A stretch of DNA of 56,737 nucleotides from Gloeocapsa sp. DLM2.Bin57 (GTDB taxonomy: Bacteria; Cyanobacteriota; Cyanobacteriia; Cyanobacteriales; Gloeocapsaceae): NCBI GenBank assembly GCA_007693955.1, contig RECR01000078.1, positions 1 through 56,737 on the forward strand, given 5' to 3'. Positions 20,128 through 33,878 of this stretch are shown here, in pieces. Below the pieces are notes generated by a model, which was not told where the DNA came from, did no database searches, and saw only the letters and a program-made list of their open reading frames with translations. A program made the translations under genes and the position numbers. The stretch's first letter is position 1. Every line of letters starts with the position of its first letter.

Positions 20128-20629
20128 ATGATTAGTTCTCCGATTTATTGGCAACAAGCGATCGCCTATTTAGGTTCTCAAGATAGAATTATGGGTAGGC
20201 TAATACAGAGTTATCCTAGTGAAAACTTACAAAACTATCATAATGCTTTTTACACTTTAGCTAGGGCGATCGTTGGTCAACAAATCTCGGTTAAATCTGC
20301 TGACGCGATTTGGTCGGGATTTGCTGCACTTTTACCCTCTATTTCTGCTGATGCTTACTTACAACTAACAGAGTCACAATTACGCGCTTGTGGGTTATCC
20401 CGTCAAAAGATAGCTTATTTGTCTAATATGGCGATTGCTTTAGAAGAGAAGTTGCTAACTCCCTTTAGGGGATATTGGCTTAATTAATGCTATCCAATTA
20501 CACTATAGCGAGCAAGAGAAACTCAGTTTAGAGGAAATTAAACAAATCAGTCAAACTTGGCGACCCTATCGTACTGTAGTAACATAGTATCTTTGGCGTA
20601 GCTTAGATCCTGTAGTTGTGCAATATTAG
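20128..20629 (+). pseudogene. Broken DNA-3-methyladenine glycosylase (AlkA family)
   Basis: Residues 1 to about 112 are intact AlkA-like sequence (LARAIVGQQISVKSADAIW). The frame then shifts near 20470 and stops at 20485-20487. The C-terminal end continues in another frame as GLINAIQLHYSEQEKL and ends in TWRPYRTVVT followed by TAG in place of the expected Trp, then YLWRSLDP. About 45 codons expected between the halves are missing; they would hold the helix-hairpin-helix and the catalytic Asp. A deletion plus an in-frame stop make this a decayed gene. Confidence 0.85.
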
Positions 20630-23173: not shown

Positions 23174-24862
23174 ATGACAGATAACCGCAGAAGTAAAATA
23201 GTTACTCAAGGACAACAGCGATCGCCGAATCGTTCCATGTTGAGAGCAGTGGGATTTGGAGATGAAGACTTTAATAAACCCATAGTGGGATTAGCCAATG
23301 GTTACAGTACCATTACCCCCTGCAACGTAGGCTTAAACGACTTAACCTTAACAGCAGAAGCAGCCCTAAAAAAAGCAGGTGCAATGCCTCAAATCTTTGG
23401 GACAATTACCATTAGTGATGGTATCGCTATGGGTACAGAAGGAATGAAATACTCTCTAGTATCCCGAGACGTGATCGCCGATTCCATCGAAACCGTCTGT
23501 AATGGACAAAGTCTCGATGGCGTACTAGCTATTGGTGGTTGTGATAAAAATATGCCAGGTGCACTAATCGCTATGGCTAGAATGAATATTCCCTCTATCT
23601 TTGTCTATGGTGGCACAATCAAACCAGGACACTATAACGGTAAAGACATTAACATCGTTAGCGCCTTTGAAGCAGTAGGAGAATATAGCGCAGGGAAAAT
23701 CGACGAAGCAGAATTACTAGAAATAGAACGTAACGCTTGTCCGGGGAAAGGTTCTTGTGGAGGTATGTACACAGCTAACACCATGTCCTCAGCTTTTGAA
23801 GCCATGGGAATGAGTTTACCCTACTCCTCTACTATGGCAGCTGAAGACGAGGAAAAAGCCGATAGTACCGCTAAATCAGCCTTTGTGCTAGTAGAAGCGA
23901 TACGTAAACAAATCCTCCCTAGAGACATCCTCACTCGTAAAGCCTTTGAAAACGCTATTTCGGTAATTATGGCGGTTGGGGGTTCGACTAACTCCGTTCT
24001 CCATTTATTGGCGATCGCCAATACCATTGGTGTTAAACTAACTATAGACGATTTTGAAACCATTCGTCGTCGTGTTCCCGTATTTTGTGACCTTAAACCC
24101 TCTGGTCAATACCTAACCGTTAATCTACATCAAGCAGGTGGTATCCCCCAGGTCATGAAAATGCTCCTAGAACAGGACTTACTTCACGGGGACGCTTTAA
24201 CTATCACAGGTCAAACCATCGCTGAAGTCTTAGCCGATGTACCCTCTGAACCTTCTACAGACCAAGAAGTAATTCATCAGTGGTCAAACCCTCTCTATAA
24301 TCAAGGACATTTGGCTATCCTCAAAGGTAACCTCGCTACAGAAGGTGCAGTAGCCAAAATAACGGGTATAAAAAAACGTCAAATCACAGGACCTGCCAGG
24401 GTTTTTGAATCAGAAGAAGATTGTTTAGCGGCTATTTTAGCAGGTAAAATCAAACCAGGAGATATCTTAGTTATCCGTTATGAAGGTCCAAAAGGTGGAC
24501 CTGGAATGCGAGAAATGCTCGCCCCCACCTCTGCAATTATCGGCGCGGGTTTAGGTGATTCCGTTGGCTTAATCACCGATGGTCGCTTCTCTGGTGGTAC
24601 TTATGGTTTTGTAGTAGGTCACGTAGCTCCAGAAGCAGCAGTAGGAGGAGCGATCGCCTTAGTCAAAGAAGGAGATAGCATCACTATCGATGCAGACACA
24701 AATCTATTGCAACTCAATATCAGTGATACTGAATTAGATACCAGAAGAAAAAATTGGCAACCTCCCCAACCTCGTTACCAAAGAGGAGTACTCGCTAAAT
24801 ACGCTAAACTAGTTTCATCTAGTAGTTTAGGTGCTGTTACCGATCTTAATTTATCACCCTAA
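23174..24862 (+). CDS. ilvD: Dihydroxy-acid dehydratase
   Basis: A 562-aa Fe-S dehydratase for the third step of valine and isoleucine synthesis. The cluster cysteines are in [14 protein letters not shown] and [18 protein letters not shown]. The C-terminal swivelling domain contains [12 protein letters not shown] and [21 protein letters not shown]. Full length and close to the family average. Confidence 0.97.
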
Positions 24863-24990: not shown

Positions 24991-27486
24991 ATGGCTAATA
25001 ACTCCGATCAAGTTCGCCATATTCTAGTTATAGAAGATCGCAAAGCTCGACGTATCGTTACTCTAGAAGATAGTACTTATTCTATTGGACGTGATACTAA
25101 AAATGATATTGTCCTCTATGACAATCAAGTCTCTCGCTATCATGCTACCCTTTTACGCATAATTGATTATAAGACTAATCAGTTTCTCTATCGCATCATC
25201 GATGGAGATTTACAAGGTAAAAGAAGTACAAATGGTATAATAGTCAACAGAAAACCCTGTTTATCTCATGAATTAAAACACGGAGATATAGTTAGATTCG
25301 CAGGCAGAGCTAAAGCGATTTATCATGTTATCGCAGCTAATACCAGTACAGATTTTAACCTATTAGTCGAAGAAGAAATAAACGAAAAAACCTTTATTGA
25401 AGATAGTAAAAGTAAAACAGAAATTATCGAAGCAGCTAAACAAACTATATCTTTTAATGAACCAGAATTAGAAAAACTAAACCAAGAAGAGTTAGTCAGA
25501 TTAGCATCTTTTCCCGAATTAAGTCCTAATCCAATCATAGAAATAAATTGGGAAGGAAAGATAACTTATATTAATGATGCAGCTAGTTTAAAATTTAAAA
25601 CGATTCACCAAAACGAAACAGAACACCCTATTCTCACAGGTTTAATTAATCAAAAAAATAGCAGACCTGGAGGATTCTTTGTCAGAGAAGTAAAAATAGG
25701 TAACGAAGTTTTTGAACAATACGTTCATTATTTAGCAGATGCACAACTAATCAGAAGCTATATTTTTGATTATACAAAACGCAAACAAAGCGAACTAGCA
25801 CTCAAAGAAACTGAAGAATTCTATCACATAGTGATGGAACAAATTAGAGAAGGTATCTTGATTATAGACTCCTTAACTCAAAAAATAGTCCAAGTCAACG
25901 AAAGCTATAGTAATTTATTAGGCTACAGCCAAAAAGAAATGATTGACTTAAATTTAGCAAATATCGTCGCTTTAGATCAAGATGTAATCGAAAAAGGACT
26001 AGACAATAACGCTCAATTAGTAACCCAATTAATCGGAAAATCTCTACACCGTCATAAAAATGGTTCATTAATCAATGTAAACGTAAAAATCAATAGTCTT
26101 AAATACCAAGAAAAAGCTATTTTATGTTTTGTGATCAATTCCGATAATCTCTCCCATACACCAGAATTGAATAATCAATATAACCCCATATATGATCCCC
26201 TGACGGGATTACCTAGTAGAACGATGTTTCAGGAATATCTATCTACAGCTATAGCTAACGCGAAAAGACATCACGACTTAATCTCAGTGATGTTTGTAGA
26301 AATTGATAATCAAACCGAAATTAATACCCCCCAACAGCAAGAACAACAAGAACAAATTATCAAACAAACGGGTAAACTGATTAGAGGATGTTTACGAGCA
26401 GGAGATACTGTAGCTCGGTGGGATAGTCAAGAGTTTAGTATTCTCTTACCTAGAGTTTTTCAAGTAAAAGATATAGCTAAAATAGCCCAAAGATTGCAGA
26501 AAATTTTACAATTAGCAGCAGAAAAAAACTCTAATTCTGTAGAAGTGAATCTAGGGATAACGATTTATCCAATTGATGCAGAAGAACCCTCAACCTTGCT
26601 CAAAAATGCAGCAGTAGCCCTAGAACAAACTAAAAAACAAAAACCCAATAGTTATAGCTTTTACAGTACAAAAATTAACCAGAAAACTCCTACTTTATTA
26701 AAACTAGAAAAGTTATTACAAGTAGCTCTAGAAAAAGAAGAATTAGAGGTATATTATCAACCTATTATCCAAATTAATGACCAAACCTTAACAGGGTTAG
26801 AAGCAAGTTTGTACTGGCAACATCCTGAATTGGGGTTAATTTCCCCAACAAAATTTATACACCTAGCAGAGCAAACAGATTTCATTATACCTATTAGTGA
26901 ATGGTTGCTAGAAAAGATTTGTCAACAAAATCAAATTTGGCAAGCTCAAGCAATGACAGCTATTCCTATTAGTATTGATTTATTATCTCGACAGTTACAA
27001 GCTCCTAACTTTGTCGATAAAATAGCTAATATTCTCGACAAGAGTAAATTAGATCATTATTTTTTGGAACTAGAAATCAGTAGTCAATGTCTTAGCGAAA
27101 ACGAAGATTTAGCTAAACAAAAAATCCCAGAGTTAGTGCATTTAGGAGTGGGTATATCTCTAGATAATTTTGGCGCAGGAACATCTCAGCTAGACTATTT
27201 ACAAAAATTTAATTTTCGTCGTCTGAAATTAGCTCCCTCCCTAGTAGAAGCAGGGAAAGATCAAGCCAGTGCAAATGCAATTATTGCCGCAGCGATCGCT
27301 CTTGGTAACGGTTTTAAACTCAAAGTAGTAGCACAAAACGTAACCACAGAAGAACAAGTCCAAAAACTAAGACAACTCAATTGTGATGAAATTCAAGGAG
27401 ATTGGTTTAGTCAACCCTTGAATGGAGAAGATATGACAAAATTACTACAAAGTCTCGCCACAGGTAGCACTAGCTTAACGCTATGA
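24991..27486 (+). CDS. FHA-PAS-PAS-GGDEF-EAL protein with degenerate catalytic motifs
   Basis: An 831-aa soluble signalling protein. Residues about 10-115 are an FHA phosphothreonine-binding domain (YSIGRDTKND, VSRYHATLL, STNG). Two PAS-like domains follow, about 165-260 and 270-385. The GGDEF domain starts at DPLTGLPSRTMF near 400, but its signature reads RWDSQEF at 476-482. The EAL domain (about 570-825) keeps EAS and a Lys, but the metal ligands are altered: Asn to Asp in ISIDLLSRQ, DDFG to DNFG, and AEGVE to AQNVT. Neither cyclase nor phosphodiesterase activity is expected; it may bind c-di-GMP or act by protein contact. A kinase-like gene follows after 24 bp. Confidence 0.88.
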   Translation: MANNSDQVRHILVIEDRKARRIVTLEDSTYSIGRDTKNDIVLYDNQVSRYHATLLRIIDYKTNQFLYRIIDGDLQGKRSTNGIIVNRKPCLSHELKHGDIVRFAGRAKAIYHVIAANTSTDFNLLVEEEINEKTFIEDSKSKTEIIEAAKQTISFNEPELEKLNQEELVRLASFPELSPNPIIEINWEGKITYINDAASLKFKTIHQNETEHPILTGLINQKNSRPGGFFVREVKIGNEVFEQYVHYLADAQLIRSYIFDYTKRKQSELALKETEEFYHIVMEQIREGILIIDSLTQKIVQVNESYSNLLGYSQKEMIDLNLANIVALDQDVIEKGLDNNAQLVTQLIGKSLHRHKNGSLINVNVKINSLKYQEKAILCFVINSDNLSHTPELNNQYNPIYDPLTGLPSRTMFQEYLSTAIANAKRHHDLISVMFVEIDNQTEINTPQQQEQQEQIIKQTGKLIRGCLRAGDTVARWDSQEFSILLPRVFQVKDIAKIAQRLQKILQLAAEKNSNSVEVNLGITIYPIDAEEPSTLLKNAAVALEQTKKQKPNSYSFYSTKINQKTPTLLKLEKLLQVALEKEELEVYYQPIIQINDQTLTGLEASLYWQHPELGLISPTKFIHLAEQTDFIIPISEWLLEKICQQNQIWQAQAMTAIPISIDLLSRQLQAPNFVDKIANILDKSKLDHYFLELEISSQCLSENEDLAKQKIPELVHLGVGISLDNFGAGTSQLDYLQKFNFRRLKLAPSLVEAGKDQASANAIIAAAIALGNGFKLKVVAQNVTTEEQVQKLRQLNCDEIQGDWFSQPLNGEDMTKLLQSLATGSTSLTL

Positions 27487-27510: not shown

Positions 27511-29394
27511 ATGGAATTCGTGACGCAATCAGAAGTATTTGAAGATGAATTGCTCGAAATACTAACTACTGAGTTAAATCCAGACAAGTTATTATCTAAC
27601 CTAGCGCTGAAAATAGCTGCTAGTTTCCTGACCGATGCTTGTTTAATTGCAACTTGTAACAATAGTTATGGTATTAAAACTGGTTATTGGTCAAAATCTC
27701 CAGAGTTATTAACACCAAATATATCCTTATACCTTAAAAATATTCCTGCAACCAAACAAGTGATCTCCTTTCATCTTAACTCAGAAGCAGCAGAAGATTT
27801 AGGGATAGAAAGTTTAGCACAACAATTAGGTTGTAACTCCCTACTTTATCTTCATACCTATTATCAAGAGCAAGTCAATGGTTTTATCGCTTTAGGTTTT
27901 TTCCAATCCCACTCCTGGAGTTTATTAACTCAAGAAAAAATCAGAAAAATAGGACTATTATTGAGTTTAACTTTTGCTTATCAACAAGTACAACAACAAC
28001 AAAAAAAACAAGCTCAATATCAATCTTTTTTAATCAATTTAAATAGGGAAATAGAGAGAACATCTCAAATGAGTACCCTATGGAGGTTATGTTTAACAGG
28101 GTTAGGAGCTTGTTTAAAAATAGATCAAGGAATGATCGTTAAATTAAAGTATTTAGACCCTTTTTTTACTTTATCAGAACAAGTTAAAATTCCTGAAGCA
28201 GAAGTAGAAATTATTGCTCAATGGTCTCCAGAATATCCTCGTAAAGCAATTCCCAAGATGTTTATACTTGATAGTTCTCTGCTTTTAAAAAAAGCTTGGT
28301 TAAATAGTCCTAACCCCTTAATTCTTGAAAATGTAACCAAACTAATTCAACAAGAAACTAATTTATTTAGAACACATATTTTCCCGAATACTATAATTAT
28401 TCCCTTACTAACTAGTAAAATTAAATCAACAGCCAAAGAAGTAATTTTAGGCTTTATTATCTTACAACAAAGAGAATCACGCTCTTGGCAAAATGAAGAT
28501 ATTCGACTAGTACAAACAGTAGCTATGCAGATAAGTATGGCTATGATTCAAAGTCAAAGTTTACGTCAAGTAGAAACCCTAGTACAAGAGCGCACAGTGC
28601 AATTAAAATGGAGCTTAGATATGCAAGGAAAGCTCTTTACTAAAACTAGACAACAATTAGAACAACTAAAACGTTTAGATAAAGTAAAAGACGAATTTAT
28701 CGCTAGATTAAGTGATGAATTAAGACTACCTCTAGCCAACATGAAAATGGCGATATCTATGCTCAAACTAACTAAAAACAACGAAAAAAATCAACACTAT
28801 CTAACAATCTTAGAAAGAGAATGTAATAAGGAAACGCAGTTAATTAATGACTTATTGACTTTTGAGCAAATTAAAACTTCACAACTAGAATTTCATTATG
28901 AATTAATCTCAATTAATCAGATAGTAGAGCAAGCAAGTCATATTTTTACCCAGAATTGGCAAGAAAAAAACCTAACTTTAGCTATACAACTAGATCCTCA
29001 ATTACAAATTTATTCAGATCGGGAAAGTTTATTAAGAATCTTAAATGAGTTATTACACAATTCTGGTAAATTTTCTGTACCGAATAGTACGGTATCTTTA
29101 GAAATTCAAGCAATCTTGGCATCTTCACAATCCCTAATCGTGATTAAAGTCAGTAACTTAGGGAGAGAAATTACCCCAACAGAAAAACCTCAGATATTTG
29201 ATCCCTTTTATCGAGGAGAAGATCTCCATCAGGGTAGCTCCCAAGGAACTGGTTTAGGATTATTTTTGGTTAAATCTCTCGTTGAATTGCTTAATGGTAC
29301 AATTGTACTTGATAGTAAAAAAACTAGAGATAAATCAGTTTTCGTGACCTTATTTAAAATCACCCTACCTCGACTAAAAGAAGCTTCTTCTTAG
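27511..29394 (+). CDS. GAF-GAF histidine-kinase-like protein lacking the phospho-acceptor His
   Basis: A 627-aa protein with two GAF-like domains (about 10-165 and 170-350), a coiled coil and a kinase core. The dimerisation helix should read SHELRxPL, but the codon at 28714-28716 is GAT, giving LSDELRLPL with Asp402 in place of His. The ATPase domain keeps the N box (LNELLHNSGKF) and the G2 box (GTGLGLFLVKSLVELL); the G1 Asp is Asn in VSNLGREI, a change also common in active cyanobacterial kinases. Autophosphorylation on His is not possible, so a pseudokinase or allosteric partner is likely. Probably cotranscribed with the FHA/GGDEF/EAL gene 24 bp upstream. Confidence 0.88.
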   Translation: MEFVTQSEVFEDELLEILTTELNPDKLLSNLALKIAASFLTDACLIATCNNSYGIKTGYWSKSPELLTPNISLYLKNIPATKQVISFHLNSEAAEDLGIESLAQQLGCNSLLYLHTYYQEQVNGFIALGFFQSHSWSLLTQEKIRKIGLLLSLTFAYQQVQQQQKKQAQYQSFLINLNREIERTSQMSTLWRLCLTGLGACLKIDQGMIVKLKYLDPFFTLSEQVKIPEAEVEIIAQWSPEYPRKAIPKMFILDSSLLLKKAWLNSPNPLILENVTKLIQQETNLFRTHIFPNTIIIPLLTSKIKSTAKEVILGFIILQQRESRSWQNEDIRLVQTVAMQISMAMIQSQSLRQVETLVQERTVQLKWSLDMQGKLFTKTRQQLEQLKRLDKVKDEFIARLSDELRLPLANMKMAISMLKLTKNNEKNQHYLTILERECNKETQLINDLLTFEQIKTSQLEFHYELISINQIVEQASHIFTQNWQEKNLTLAIQLDPQLQIYSDRESLLRILNELLHNSGKFSVPNSTVSLEIQAILASSQSLIVIKVSNLGREITPTEKPQIFDPFYRGEDLHQGSSQGTGLGLFLVKSLVELLNGTIVLDSKKTRDKSVFVTLFKITLPRLKEASS

Positions 29395-29592: not shown

Positions 29593-31257
29593 ATGATTAC
29601 TGAGAGTAATTCACCTCTTCTGTCTTGGCAATCCACAACAAGTTCATCTGTCATTAGACGTCAGTTTAACATTTTCAGGGTAGCTTTTCAATTTCTGGCT
29701 TATCTGTGGTGGGATAAACTAACGGGTAACCAGAAAAGCTCAACCAGACAGCAACGCGCACAATGGCTAGTCACTCAGTTATTATATCTAGGTCCAACTT
29801 TTATTAAAATTGGACAAGCTTTATCTACTCGCGCTGATTTAATACCCCTTGAATATATACAAGCTTTTGGTAAACTACAAGATAACGTCCCTCCCTTTAG
29901 TCATCTAGAAGCGATCGCCATTATTGAAACCGAGTTAGGAAATCAACTCGAACATCTTTTTTTAGATTTTGAACAACAACCTCTAGCATCTGCTAGTCTA
30001 GGACAAGTACACCGAGCAATTCTCCATGATGGTGAGAAAGTAGTAGTTAAAGTCCAAAGACCAGGATTAGAAGAGTTATTTAACCTAGACTTTGAAATCA
30101 TACACGGTTTAGTTCGCTTTGTGAATCGTTGGTTACCGAGTTTACGTCAATACGAATTAGAAGAGATATATCAAGAATTTTTCCAACTGCTTTATCTAGA
30201 AATCGATTATATTCATGAAGGTAAAAACGCCGAAAGATTTAGCGAAAATTTTACTAACTATGCTCAAGTAAAAGTCCCTAAAATCTATTGGGATTATACC
30301 ACCAAAAAAGTTTTAACCCTAGAATATCTACCAGGAATAAAAATTAATGATCTAACAACTTTACAAGCTAAGGGTATTAATACTAATAAAATTATTGAAT
30401 TAGGTATTTGTAGTTATCTCAAACAACTGTTAGAAGATGGCTTTTTTCAATCAGATCCCCATCCTGGTAATATGGCAGTTAATGAAGAAGGAGCGATAAT
30501 TTTCTATGATTTTGGGACAATGATTGAGATTAAATCTATGGCGAAAGAGCAAATGGTGGGTACTTTTTTTGCTGTTCTACGTAAAGATACAGATGAAGTG
30601 CTACAGATGCTTATCTATATGGGTTTAATTAAACCAGTAGGAGATTTAGCCCCAGTTAAAAGAATTGTCGCTTTTTTACTAGAAAGATTTCGAGATAAAC
30701 CAGTAGATATCAAAGCTTTTGAAGAAGTCAGTCAAGAGATTTACTTAATGTTTGAAGAGCAACCTTTTCGCTTACCCGCGCAAATGACCTTTGTTTTAAA
30801 ATCTCTGACTACTTTAGATGGTATTGCTAGAGGGTTAAATCCAGAATATAATTTATTAGCTGCTAGTAAACCTTTTGTACAAAATATTGCTCTTTCTCAA
30901 CGGGGTGAAATCAATTTAAATATGTTAGTTAGACAAGCTAAAGATTTTTGGAAAAATCGGATTTCTAATTCAGGAAGCGTTCAAGATTCAATTAGTAGAT
31001 TAGAATCTCGGCTAGAAAGTGGCGAGTTACAGGTTAGAGTACGTTCTTTAGAAACCGAATTATTATTAAAACGTATTAACTTAGGCATAAAAACTCTGGT
31101 ATATGTGTGTTTATTGGGCTTCTCCATTGTCACAGCTATTCTCTTATTATCTACTCCCTATAGTTCTTGGGCAATTATTCCTTTTGGATTAAGTGGGTTA
31201 TGGTGTTTATTTTTCCTACGTTGTTTTATTACTCTACTGATTCAAGAAAGGTTCTGA
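29593..31257 (+). CDS. ABC1/UbiB-family atypical kinase
   Basis: A 554-aa protein of the ADCK/UbiB/ABC1K group that supports quinone and isoprenoid-lipid metabolism in plastids and cyanobacteria. It shows GPTFIKIGQALSTRADLIP (the KxGQ motif near residue 75), the alanine-rich loop ASASLGQVHRA in place of a glycine-rich loop, VVVKVQRPG with the catalytic Lys, and SDPHPGNMAV with YDFGTM for the catalytic and metal-binding Asp. Two hydrophobic segments at the C-terminus (about 500-550) anchor it in the membrane. No quinone biosynthesis gene is adjacent. Confidence 0.9.
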   Translation: MITESNSPLLSWQSTTSSSVIRRQFNIFRVAFQFLAYLWWDKLTGNQKSSTRQQRAQWLVTQLLYLGPTFIKIGQALSTRADLIPLEYIQAFGKLQDNVPPFSHLEAIAIIETELGNQLEHLFLDFEQQPLASASLGQVHRAILHDGEKVVVKVQRPGLEELFNLDFEIIHGLVRFVNRWLPSLRQYELEEIYQEFFQLLYLEIDYIHEGKNAERFSENFTNYAQVKVPKIYWDYTTKKVLTLEYLPGIKINDLTTLQAKGINTNKIIELGICSYLKQLLEDGFFQSDPHPGNMAVNEEGAIIFYDFGTMIEIKSMAKEQMVGTFFAVLRKDTDEVLQMLIYMGLIKPVGDLAPVKRIVAFLLERFRDKPVDIKAFEEVSQEIYLMFEEQPFRLPAQMTFVLKSLTTLDGIARGLNPEYNLLAASKPFVQNIALSQRGEINLNMLVRQAKDFWKNRISNSGSVQDSISRLESRLESGELQVRVRSLETELLLKRINLGIKTLVYVCLLGFSIVTAILLLSTPYSSWAIIPFGLSGLWCLFFLRCFITLLIQERF

Positions 31258-31494
31258 CATTAAGTATTAACACGTAGAAGTTGAGACTAAGAAAAATTAA
31301 AAATAGTGAAAATGCTTAAAGATTAGTTGAAAAAAATATCTTTTAAAAAACAATTAAATCAGTGAATGTTAACTAAATTGTGCTTTTATTAAAAAATAAG
31401 AAAAATTAGTAATCAACGGAAAATAAGATGTTAAAAATAAATTAGGTCAAATAAATACATCCAGTCTGAAATTTTATCATTGGGCATCAAAAAT

Positions 31495-32046
31495 ATGTTA
31501 GATCCACAAGAATTTATGCACAAAATGGAGGCTAGAATGGTCTTCAGTGCTGAGGATAAAGGCGTGTTAAAAGCTAACGCAGATTGGGGAAAATCCATAG
31601 CAACAGAAATGTCTGATCATTTCTACGCATATTTAGGTCGTGATGCTGAAATGAATGCTATTCTCAACGAAACAGAAGGTCGTATTCACCGTCTGCGGGA
31701 CACATTTATAGAGTGGTTTGGCGAAATGTTTACAGGAATAGATGACTGGGGTAATGCTTATGCAGAGCGTCGCTGGAGAATTGGCTTAATTCACGTACGT
31801 ATAGGGATTGGTCCTCAGCACGTCGTGCCAGCTATGGCAACAGTGGTACGAGCATTAGGTAAAAAACTTAAAACAGAAGGTAAAGATAATGGTTTACAAG
31901 AATCATTGAGCAAAATCTGCATGATTGACCTAGCCTTCATTGAACAAGCCTATATAGAGGTTGCATCACAAGCAGTCTTGCGAGAGACGGGATGGTCAGA
32001 AGGACTGTTTAAACGACTGATCACCACTGGTGCAGGCTCAATGTAA
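31495..32046 (+). CDS. Protoglobin-domain (globin-coupled-sensor type) protein
   Basis: A 183-aa protein consisting of a protoglobin/sensor-globin fold alone. The proximal heme His is probably that in the segment RIGLIHVRIGIGP near residue 100, matching the family pattern GxxHxRIG; upstream IHRLRDTFIEWFGEMF is helix E-like. The ATG at 31495 is preferred over a TTG at 31480; neither has a clear ribosome site. No output domain is fused, so any signal must pass to a partner. The next gene is a roadblock protein 32 bp downstream, followed by a GTPase and a DUF4388 protein. Confidence 0.8.
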   Translation: MLDPQEFMHKMEARMVFSAEDKGVLKANADWGKSIATEMSDHFYAYLGRDAEMNAILNETEGRIHRLRDTFIEWFGEMFTGIDDWGNAYAERRWRIGLIHVRIGIGPQHVVPAMATVVRALGKKLKTEGKDNGLQESLSKICMIDLAFIEQAYIEVASQAVLRETGWSEGLFKRLITTGAGSM

Positions 32047-32078
32047 TCAAATTTGTAACTCAGTAAAAAGGAACGATT

Positions 32079-32450
32079 ATGGCAATTAACACTCAAAAAC
32101 TAACCAGTATTCTTCAAAACTTCGTGTCTAGTACTAGCGATGTTCAAGGAGCAGCAGTAGTTACACCAGACGGTCTCAGTCTAGCCTCTAGTTTACCAAG
32201 TGGGATGGATGAAGAGAGGGTTTCAGCTATGTCAGCTGCTATGCTTTCTCTAGGTGAACGTATCGGTAGCGAACTCAATAGAGGTGGAATTGACCGAATT
32301 TATGTAGAAGGAGATGAAGGTTACGGTATTTTAACTAGTTGTGGTGAAGATGCGGTTTTCCTCGTTCTTGCTAGTAAAGCAGCTAAACAAGGTGTTCTAA
32401 TGCTGGAAATCAAACGATCCCTTAGCGAGTTGAAGCTAATTTTAAGTTAA
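32079..32450 (+). CDS. Roadblock/LC7-domain protein (MglB-like)
   Basis: A 123-aa single-domain protein of the roadblock/LC7 family: VQGAAVVTPDGLSLASSLP at residues about 22-40, then MSAAMLSLGERIGSEL and VFLVLASKAAKQGVLMLEIKRS. Homologues such as MglB form dimers that regulate Ras-like GTPases. A small-GTPase gene lies 80 bp downstream, its presumed partner. A ribosome site AAGGA precedes the ATG. The 32450-32531 gap holds a 7-bp hairpin (GAGAGTG 32462-32468, CACTCTC 32492-32498). Confidence 0.88.
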   Translation: MAINTQKLTSILQNFVSSTSDVQGAAVVTPDGLSLASSLPSGMDEERVSAMSAAMLSLGERIGSELNRGGIDRIYVEGDEGYGILTSCGEDAVFLVLASKAAKQGVLMLEIKRSLSELKLILS

Positions 32451-32530
32451 ATCAAGATTAAGAGAGTGTAATTAGAATAACTGTTTAATTTCACTCTCAG
32501 GAATAGCTTAATTTATTGGAGTTAATAGTT

Positions 32531-33070
32531 ATGGAAATTATGCGCCTCGTCATTACCGGACCTGTTGGCGCAGGTAAATCGACTTTTATTCGTTCTATCA
32601 GTGAAATTACCCCTGTAGATACCGATCGCCGAGCTACAGACGAAACCATGGAATTAAAAGCTAAAACTACTGTTGCTTTTGATTTTGGTCGTTTACAATT
32701 TAGTCCCAATATGGCGTTACATCTCTATGGAACGCCAGGACAATCTCGTTTTGATTTTATGTGGGATATATTGATACGTAAAGCTCACGCCTATATGTTA
32801 CTTATCCCTGCTAATCAACCAGGTCAATTTCTTAACGCTAGACGCATCATCAATTTTATGAACCAAAGAGCAGAAATACCCATGGTGATTGGCTTAACTC
32901 ATTTAGATTGTCCCGGAGCTTGGCCGGCTGATAATATTGCCTTAGCTTTAGGATTTACCGACGAAGCGACTCGACCTCAGATAGTGATGGTTAACGCTAC
33001 TAAAAAAGGCTCAGTAGCTCAAGCAGTCATCGTACTGGTTAAACAATTGTTACAAAATTGCGCCGTCTAG
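32531..33070 (+). CDS. MglA/Arf-like small GTPase
   Basis: A 179-aa Ras-superfamily GTPase. The P-loop is TGPVGAGKST near residue 10, the switch II motif YGTPGQSRFDFMWD lacks the usual DxxG Asp as in MglA-type proteins, and the base-recognition motif is THLD in place of NKxD. No lipidation motif is seen. The ATG at 32531 follows a GGAG ribosome site at 32518-32521, so the TTG at 32516 is rejected. With the roadblock gene upstream it forms an MglA-MglB-like pair; the downstream DUF4388 gene starts 11 bp after its stop. Confidence 0.88.
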   Translation: MEIMRLVITGPVGAGKSTFIRSISEITPVDTDRRATDETMELKAKTTVAFDFGRLQFSPNMALHLYGTPGQSRFDFMWDILIRKAHAYMLLIPANQPGQFLNARRIINFMNQRAEIPMVIGLTHLDCPGAWPADNIALALGFTDEATRPQIVMVNATKKGSVAQAVIVLVKQLLQNCAV

Positions 33071-33080
33071 GGAGGAAATT

Positions 33081-33878
33081 ATGACTATTACTGGCTATTT
33101 ATCAGAATTTTCCCTAGCTGAATTGTTTCGGTTTTTAGATCAAGGATTGAAAACAGGTTTACTCACTCTTAAACCTCAAACCAATTCTCCCTATTATATC
33201 TGGTGTCATCAAGGTCGCGTAGTCGCCGCAGCAAAAAGTCTGACTGGTGATAGCTTGCTTTCGTTAATGCGCGATCGCAAAATGTTAAAAACCGTTCCCG
33301 AAGAAGAAATAATCAATGACAATAATCCCCTAGGGTTAACTCTTAAAGCTCACAATTTCTTAGACTCAGAACAACTGAAGATGCTGTTTGCGATCCAAGT
33401 AATGCGCAGTGTCTGTACCTTGTTTACTTGGCAAAATGCTTGGTTTGAATTTGATTCTGACGCGGAAATACCCCGATCAGAAATGACAGGTTTAAGCGCA
33501 CCCGCGACAGAAATTACCCTAGCAGGTTTACGCACTCTCAAGGATTGGTCTGCTTTACAAGAAAAATTACCTATTGGTACTTCTTCTCTGATTAGTATTT
33601 TAGAAGGACAAAGCAAATTCCGTCTTAATCAAATAGAGTCTCAAGTGTGGGAATTTACCGATGGTGTGACCCCCCTTAATTCTATCGCTAAACAGCTAGA
33701 TTTACCTCTAGAAACCATACAAAAAGCGGCTTTTGGCTTAATCGTCATTGGTTTAGCCGAAGAAATACCCATGGTAGAATTGACCAATGAAAATAATAAT
33801 CTGGCTACAGATGATATCTCTAGTAGTTTAAGTCAATCTTTCTTAGAAAACTTGGTTCATTTTCTCGATCACGTTTAA
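33081..33878 (+). CDS. DUF4388 (PATAN-like) protein
   Basis: A 265-aa protein. Residues 1 to about 160 match DUF4388, the domain found at the N-terminus of PatA-type response regulators (ITGYLSEFSLAELFRFLDQG, TGLLTL, YYIWCHQGRVVAA). The C-terminal about 80 residues (FRLNQIESQVWEFTDGVTPL) resemble a winged-helix extension. In PATAN proteins this domain carries regulation to type IV pilus motors; applying that here is inference. A strong ribosome site (GGGAGG) precedes the ATG and overlaps the end of the GTPase gene. Its stop overlaps that of the convergent ABC transporter by 4 bp. Confidence 0.82.
   Translation: MTITGYLSEFSLAELFRFLDQGLKTGLLTLKPQTNSPYYIWCHQGRVVAAAKSLTGDSLLSLMRDRKMLKTVPEEEIINDNNPLGLTLKAHNFLDSEQLKMLFAIQVMRSVCTLFTWQNAWFEFDSDAEIPRSEMTGLSAPATEITLAGLRTLKDWSALQEKLPIGTSSLISILEGQSKFRLNQIESQVWEFTDGVTPLNSIAKQLDLPLETIQKAAFGLIVIGLAEEIPMVELTNENNNLATDDISSSLSQSFLENLVHFLDHV

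Follow-up and report, generated by a model that had tools for sequence, protein, structure and literature searches.

Domain organization of the FHA protein

The contig RECR01000078.1 of Gloeocapsa sp. DLM2.Bin57 (assembly GCA_007693955.1), whose 56,737 nucleotides are referred to here as the window, carries on its forward strand ilvD, a gene for a multi-domain signaling protein with an N-terminal FHA domain, a gene for a histidine-kinase homolog and a gene for an ABC1 atypical kinase. Our main subject is the FHA gene. In its product both enzyme sites for turnover of cyclic diguanosine monophosphate (c-di-GMP) are damaged, yet the phosphothreonine-binding FHA front end is almost unchanged. The FHA gene contains the following features:

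24991..27486, + strand: FHA-PAS-PAS-GGDEF-EAL protein, both catalytic sites degraded; 831 amino acids, ATG to TGA
25078..25299, + strand: FHA domain, residues 30-103; Pfam E 4.8e-15, phosphothreonine-binding motif GR..SRxH..N intact
25534..25770, + strand: first PAS-like domain, residues ~182-260; found in the AlphaFold2 model, missed by Pfam
25816..26142, + strand: second PAS domain, residues 276-384; Pfam (three overlapping models, 276-382) and AlphaFold2 model
26191..26649, + strand: degenerate GGDEF domain, residues 401-553; Pfam
26395..26406, + strand: inhibitory site (I-site) RxxD, kept as RAGD, residues 469-472; motif reading
26422..26436, + strand: lost active site (A-site), DSQEF in place of GGDEF, residues 478-482; motif reading
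26716..27417, + strand: degenerate EAL domain, residues 576-809; Pfam and motif reading

All Pfam matches to FHA, PAS, GGDEF and EAL in this protein score above the gathering threshold. An AlphaFold2 model calculated from 38 family sequences (mean predicted local distance difference test, pLDDT, 80.7; predicted template-modeling score, pTM, 0.47) shows the FHA strands between residues 8 and 115 and a linker of low confidence (118-163), followed by the PAS-like fold at 182-260, the second PAS domain, GGDEF and EAL. Since the pTM is low, the arrangement of the domains relative to each other is unreliable in this model. The nearest solved sequence to the FHA domain is that of Slr1951 (pdb entry 3hx1). 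The top solved fold matches of the protein are the PAS/GGDEF/EAL proteins DosP and MorA and the GGDEF-EAL hybrid PA0575, with LapD ranking lower.

Catalytic residues

The GGDEF active site, for which GG[D/E]EF is required, reads DSQEF. In the EAL domain five of the eight metal-binding and catalytic residues (E, N, E, D, D, K, E, Q) are kept, the corresponding row in the window protein being EDEDNKQQ. The exchanges are Asn to Asp (SIDL at the Asn motif), DDFG to DNFG and AEGVE to AQNVT. These motif changes had all been named correctly in the initial annotation, which deduced from them that catalysis is degraded. Its deduction holds for both sites and can be refined, since the Glu of the EAL motif, the Lys, the last Gln and the I-site RxxD are retained, and one further exchange, Arg to Tyr directly after the EAL motif, has to be added. 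The phosphothreonine motif of the FHA domain is complete (R, S, R, H and N, five of five residues) and the domain is among the best conserved parts of the protein, in agreement with the phosphothreonine input that had been assigned to it. The presence of an FHA-PAS-GGDEF-EAL gene in which both enzyme sites are damaged is hence confirmed.

Family, paralogs and tandem arrays

Homolog searches covered 60 relatives and 388 genomes of the class. The FHA-PAS front end was matched at E 1e-20 in 38 of the relatives, several of them over FHA alone, and at E 1e-30 in 106 genomes of the class. Homology over the full length with the same domain order is found for 37 other alignment rows, to which the window protein is 32-86% identical. 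Its identity to the other two species of the genus is 74% (G001) and 86% (G002; the window genome is G000), and among nine loci of one contig scan a single close relative was present, on contig CALGKL010000112.1 of a Gloeocapsa metagenome-assembled genome (86% identical).

For scoring of the functional sites, 105 FHA-family matches from selected loci were condensed to 71 distinct full-length rows, to which the FHA-PAS-rich families f33, f45, f55 and f58 contribute few or none. All 66 rows aligned over this position carry the five phosphothreonine-binding residues; five of the 71 rows have a gap over FHA in the alignment, and in the one of these that was scanned Pfam finds the domain. GGDEF is intact in 31 of the 71 rows and the complete set of eight EAL residues in 50; 19 rows have lost both sites, 21 GGDEF alone and two EAL alone. 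When the motif columns are removed before tree building, these states require at least seven changes for GGDEF and at least 11 for EAL, where loss and gain are indistinguishable and the resolution of the backbone is poor.

In the window genome five FHA-PAS matches were found: the window gene, three consecutive copies on contig C75, one of which, the first, is cut by the contig end, and one copy on contig C50 that has intact GGDEF and EAL motifs and no I-site. In four three-gene arrays of family f14 (genomes G015, G384, G393 and G419; loci L144, L145, L146 and L082) the order is constant. Gene 1 has lost both sites, gene 2 only GGDEF, and in gene 3 both are intact. By its motifs, the window gene is a putatively dead "type 1" member, in catalytic terms, of a cyanobacterial FHA-PAS-PAS-GGDEF-EAL family that has been multiplied into tandem arrays.

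An enzymatically dead protein of this kind could still be a c-di-GMP receptor that binds the nucleotide via the I-site or the EAL pocket and signals to a partner. PopA binds through its I-site, LapD and FimX through the EAL pocket, passing the signal on. Of the 19 doubly degraded rows, 16 lack the second DDFG Asp and 13 the AEGVE Glu, whereas all 19 retain the EAL Glu, the Lys and both Gln, and 15 the Arg. Such a loss of catalytic Asp/Glu combined with retention of most ligand-holding residues would be expected for binding without turnover and resembles receptors from other lineages. Likewise, the I-site is kept in the window protein, in both sister species and in 32 of the 40 rows that lost GGDEF. 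However, the three proteins of the window genus are the only ones among the 19 with Arg to Tyr and Leu to Ser at the EAL motif. The Asn is lost in these three as well, and their EAL pocket therefore looks poor. I-site retention is similar in intact copies (23 of 31), and the I-site columns are approximately as conserved as neighboring structural columns. It is consequently weak evidence for binding, and we rejected it as proof thereof. Taken together, a receptor function appears possible but rather unlikely for the window protein.

Selection and distribution of constraint

The reading frame of the FHA gene is open in three species and that of the kinase gene in two, the third copy being cut by a contig end. 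The ratio of nonsynonymous to synonymous substitution rates (dN/dS) over the whole gene is 0.11 for the FHA gene and 0.16 for the kinase gene. In the comparison with G002 (dS ~0.6-0.8), dN/dS amounts to 0.03 for FHA, 0.09 for the linker and first PAS, 0.13 for the second PAS, 0.13 for GGDEF and 0.11 for EAL; the corresponding values against G001 are 0.03, 0.09, 0.10, 0.14 and 0.14. Control paralogs with intact motifs (the C50 copy versus C76 of G001) gave 0.11 for GGDEF and 0.07 for EAL. The kinase gene compared with G001 has a value of 0.16 overall and 0.30 in the ATPase domain. These ratios indicate that purifying selection acts on both genes and that they are not pseudogenes. That both are decaying relics might be suspected from active-site residues that are still changing within the genus, where the A-site reads DSQEF, DSHQF or DNHQF. 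Open frames and the low whole-gene ratios contradict decay, and we consider this explanation very improbable.

As a measure of where constraint lies within the protein, the mean pairwise identity between families was calculated for each domain:

Window-type copies (13 rows, 53 pairs): FHA 64%, first PAS 67%, second PAS 40%, GGDEF 33%, EAL 40%
Array gene 2 (10 rows, 29 pairs; including one row, G028, that lost EAL too): FHA 57%, first PAS 51%, second PAS 35%, GGDEF 42%, EAL 45%
Array gene 3 (5 rows, 4 pairs): FHA 43%, first PAS 41%, GGDEF 47%, EAL 50%
C50-like intact copies (6 rows, 13 pairs): FHA 50%, PAS 32% and 49%, GGDEF 52%, EAL 51%
Other (solo) intact copies (14 rows, 88 pairs; including one row, G004, without I-site): FHA 51%, PAS 51% and 28%, GGDEF 54%, EAL 51%

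Dividing the FHA by the EAL identity gives 1.61 for the window-type copies and 1.28 for gene 2, against 0.85 to 1.00 for intact copies. The most conserved domain of the window-type copies is the first PAS. On this measure constraint in window-type copies is seen to have moved from the GGDEF-EAL half to the FHA-PAS half. This shift is our strongest evidence and suggests that the selected part of the protein is the phosphothreonine reader together with its PAS domain.

The neighboring kinase homolog

The gene downstream of the FHA gene has the following features:

27511..29394, + strand: histidine-kinase homolog without phospho-acceptor His; GAF-HisKA-HATPase_c (Pfam), 627 amino acids
28714..28716, + strand: codon of Asp402 at the phospho-acceptor position; LSDELR, family comparison
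29155..29157, + strand: codon of Asn549 in the G1 box; family-wide trait, no loss in this gene

As noticed earlier, this gene starts 24 bp after the stop codon of the FHA gene and encodes a kinase-like protein lacking the His. The family comparison adds that Asp402 takes the position at which most of the family has His. The protein is 60% identical to its counterpart in G001 over the whole length and 74% identical to that in G002 over the 214 residues before the contig ends. The core family was defined by a score of >370 bits with a 29-member model. In total 123 kinase genes were read, from 97 of the 118 genomes matched in one search (21 were unfetched) and 26 from another search. The G002 gene, which is truncated by the end of its contig, does not enter the counts, and the kinase of G012, a split open reading frame (ORF), was left out of the trees and counted as Asp.

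The phospho-acceptor position is occupied by His in 89 of the 123 members, by Asp in 34 and by nothing else. In 29 Asp-type proteins the Asp and its Ser and Leu neighbors are kept throughout (29 of 29), the Glu after the site in three and the H-box Thr in four. Trees calculated without ten H-box columns around the site require four to six His/Asp changes, four of which are forced by well-supported branches, and a single Asp clade is rejected by the approximately unbiased test (p-AU 2.8e-7; quick tree, 50 rows). The trees indicate that the change from His to Asp arose independently at least four times in this family. Single-base changes of a His codon give seven residues, Asp among them; it therefore seems unlikely that all changes ended in Asp by chance.

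In the ATP lid the window kinase carries Asn549 instead of the Asp of the G1 box. Asn is found at this position in 120 and Ser in two of the 122 family members scored, and Asn also in all of the 30 kinases of the wider cyanobacterial superfamily (loci L244-L275), 29 of which have the acceptor His and one Gln. The G1-box Asn was consequently rejected as a sign of lost ATP binding in this gene, being a family-wide trait that recurs in these 30 superfamily kinases. The large wider superfamily combines the G1-box change of Asp to Asn with a change of the first N-box Asn to Glu, His being kept in 29 of 30. Fold matches of the window kinase include RetS and DivL. The kinase homologs of family f14 (L216, L223, L234, L235, L278 and L279) are N-terminally shortened, with 436-451 amino acids.

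Gene neighborhood

The FHA and kinase genes are flanked by

23174..24862, + strand: ilvD, upstream neighbor (Pfam)
29593..31257, + strand: ABC1 atypical kinase gene (Pfam ABC1 E 1.5e-86)

The FHA and kinase genes adjoin in all three genomes of the genus, with gaps of 24 (G000), 55 (G001) and 24 bp (G002). ilvD lies upstream in each of them, and ABC1 lies downstream in the two whose contigs reach that far. Outside the genus the two halves of this locus occur separately. ilvD adjoins the window-type FHA gene in two further genomes (G028 and G020), and no gene of the kinase family is present in the FHA loci fetched from these. An FHA-family gene, in turn, was found in none of the loci from 121 other genomes with the kinase family; this absence is limited by some short flanks, which among 123 genomes reach at least 1.4 kb on both sides in 79 and at least 4 kb in 53.

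The recurrent neighbor of the kinase family is ABC1. Of the 122 genomes with at least 600 bases of sequence beyond the kinase gene, 65, from 24 of 36 families, have ABC1 downstream in the same orientation at a distance of up to 1.5 kb; the negatives thus include loci with less than 1.5 kb. In 57 genomes the gap is below 300 bp as extrapolated from tblastn matches. Both His- and Asp-type kinases show the adjacency, and in five of six f14 genomes the two genes overlap. No ABC1 neighbor was found in 12 families (for example f56, 0 of 17 genomes), and it is rare in f33 (2 of 18). As a control, 52 other loci around FHA-PAS genes were searched and contained no ABC1 match above 45% identity. The ABC1 kinase is likely an ancient neighbor of the kinase homolog, and to judge from their distribution the two genes appear to form a conserved functional unit.

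Because ilvD-FHA and kinase-ABC1 occur separately, the adjacency of the FHA and kinase genes can be regarded as a junction of two older neighborhoods. Most simply, by parsimony, the two blocks would have been joined in this genus; the alternative is an ancestral order lost elsewhere. The two consecutive genes on which the initial annotation relied are consequently conserved as a pair within the genus (three of three genomes) and are not seen together outside of it as far as the loci reach, where the kinase family pairs with ABC1 instead. Had the pair been missing from every relative, the annotation would have counted its view as refuted; this is the case outside the genus, within the same limits, but not inside it.

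From this pair, the annotation had proposed that the FHA protein and the kinase homolog form a two-protein non-enzymatic signaling complex. The genes are adjacent on the same strand with short gaps in all three genomes of the genus, and comparable associations exist elsewhere: 14 genomes of f58 encode an FHA-PAS front end and a GAF-histidine kinase as one fused protein (Pfam domains confirmed for one), three genomes of f12 (G013, G437 and G465) have a wider-superfamily kinase ~386 bp upstream of an FHA-PAS-GGDEF-EAL gene, and two f14 genomes have a hybrid kinase of a different type after an FHA gene. The fused kinases at first resembled a sister group of the kinase family, but other superfamily kinases score alike. 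The FHA-PAS front end is thus used with both outputs, GGDEF-EAL and kinase. As the kinases fused to it or encoded upstream are members of the wider superfamily, it is not specific for the kinase family of the window. The fusion was rejected as a specific link to this family, because in wider sampling the fused kinases are not one group. FHA-PAS genes do co-occur with 27 of 33 Asp-type kinases versus 12 of 89 His-type kinases, but this correlation had to be rejected as well, as it rests on four to five independent comparisons and is not significant in a sign test. With the FHA-free loci of 121 other genomes and with ABC1 as the partner of the kinase family, a dedicated complex of the two proteins seems unlikely.

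Scans for promoters and terminators around the genes gave no excess over shuffled sequence (14 vs 17.1 and 1 vs 2.5, respectively). Elsewhere in the window, the ORF at 20128-20487 encodes a short, apparently truncated HhH-GPD DNA glycosylase of 119 amino acids (Pfam), and a row of genes for a Protoglobin, a Roadblock/LC7 protein, a small GTPase-like protein and a DUF4388 protein is located at 31480-33878 (Pfam).

Proposed function

With moderate confidence, we favor a phosphothreonine-reading adaptor without catalysis for the FHA protein, next to a kinase homolog that would be a separate unit belonging with ABC1. An adaptor is preferred over an enzyme because both c-di-GMP sites are damaged while the FHA front end is almost unchanged. 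In such an adaptor the FHA domain would bind a Thr-phosphorylated partner, the PAS domains would relay the signal or dimerize, and the dead GGDEF-EAL half may provide a docking or hetero-oligomer surface. The simplest partner for this half would be the paralog with intact motifs on contig C50 of the same genome. The kinase homolog, for its part, would work together with the ABC1 kinase downstream.

Several observations weigh against this proposal. The dS values against G001 are near saturation. The sets were chosen by hand, the window-type set after the searches had been seen, and their comparison is descriptive. The window-type set also contains one intact copy (G028) and one in which only GGDEF is lost (G020), and its branching is poorly resolved on the tree. 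As G028 is intact and the EAL site of G020 as well, the constraint shift belongs to the lineage more than to each dead copy. Furthermore, the spacings of 24, 24 and 55 bp fit co-transcription of the FHA and kinase genes in the genus.

A more far-reaching phosphothreonine circuit can be imagined, in which the ABC1 kinase is regulated by a kinase homolog that has repeatedly exchanged its acceptor His for Asp, perhaps as a permanent phospho-mimic or lock, and, in this genus, has been joined by a dead FHA-bearing c-di-GMP enzyme that reads Thr phosphorylation. Across the wider clade, kinase and ABC1 would then be a general module of cyanobacteria, the two-component sensor acting directly on an ABC1 kinase in place of a response regulator. 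We regard this combination as improbable enough to be called speculative.

Irrespective of this circuit, the measured constraint shift would describe c-di-GMP enzymes on their way to non-catalytic proteins whose conserved part is a phosphothreonine reader. The tandem arrays keep live copies too and may therefore represent a natural experiment on pseudo-enzymes that regulate active relatives. For the kinase homolog, the ABC1 neighborhood suggests a regulator of an ABC1 kinase.

Comparison with known systems

LapD, FimX and PopA are degenerate GGDEF/EAL proteins that act as receptors. None of them is known to have an FHA input, and unlike the LapD/FimX kind the EAL domain of the window protein no longer has the Arg that follows the EAL motif. 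RetS and DivL share the histidine-kinase fold with the neighboring gene product, and DivL also lacks the acceptor His, carrying Tyr. In the window kinase the replacement is Asp, and its family is often found beside ABC1 kinases. In the search listings and passages of the open literature that were covered, subscription papers aside, we found no report of dead FHA-GGDEF-EAL copies, nor of kinase-ABC1 pairing or of His changing repeatedly to Asp.

For the kinase side, an ABC1 kinase of Nostoc is described as co-transcribed with a different gene (PMC7660261), and of the Synechocystis ABC1 kinases SpkH-L activity is reported as shown for SpkH only (PMC11863333). The histidine kinase RavS is known to bind c-di-GMP through its catalytic region (PMC6707612). 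One FHA-kinase was described in each of five strains, Thermosynechococcus being named (PMC9953108), which is consistent with the fused proteins of f58. It shares the FHA input with the window protein, and the f58 loci carry the same FHA-PAS front end; it differs in its histidine-kinase output, which has the His and is fused in one protein.

The domain architecture itself has precedents. FHA is listed among the domains of the 16 c-di-GMP enzymes treated for Anabaena (PMC13075795). In Microcystis aeruginosa an FHA-GGDEF-EAL hybrid, which shares these three domain types with the window protein, is reported for 23 of 24 genomes, one in each. Its RxxD and GGDEF motifs are less conserved than in the stand-alone cyclase, whereas its EAL residues are described as highly conserved and catalysis as possible (PMC7063779; compared by description). 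Similar in organization is CdgSH (All1175) of Anabaena PCC 7120, which is likewise cyanobacterial and has FHA, PAS, GGDEF and EAL in the same order as the window protein. By measurement CdgSH is a bifunctional enzyme with dominant phosphodiesterase activity, and according to its description it differs from the window protein by an additional GAF domain and by the presence of all catalytic residues (PMC8682488). The architecture is thus known in cyanobacteria, and the window protein is best read as a putative phosphothreonine-reading pseudo-enzyme with this organization.

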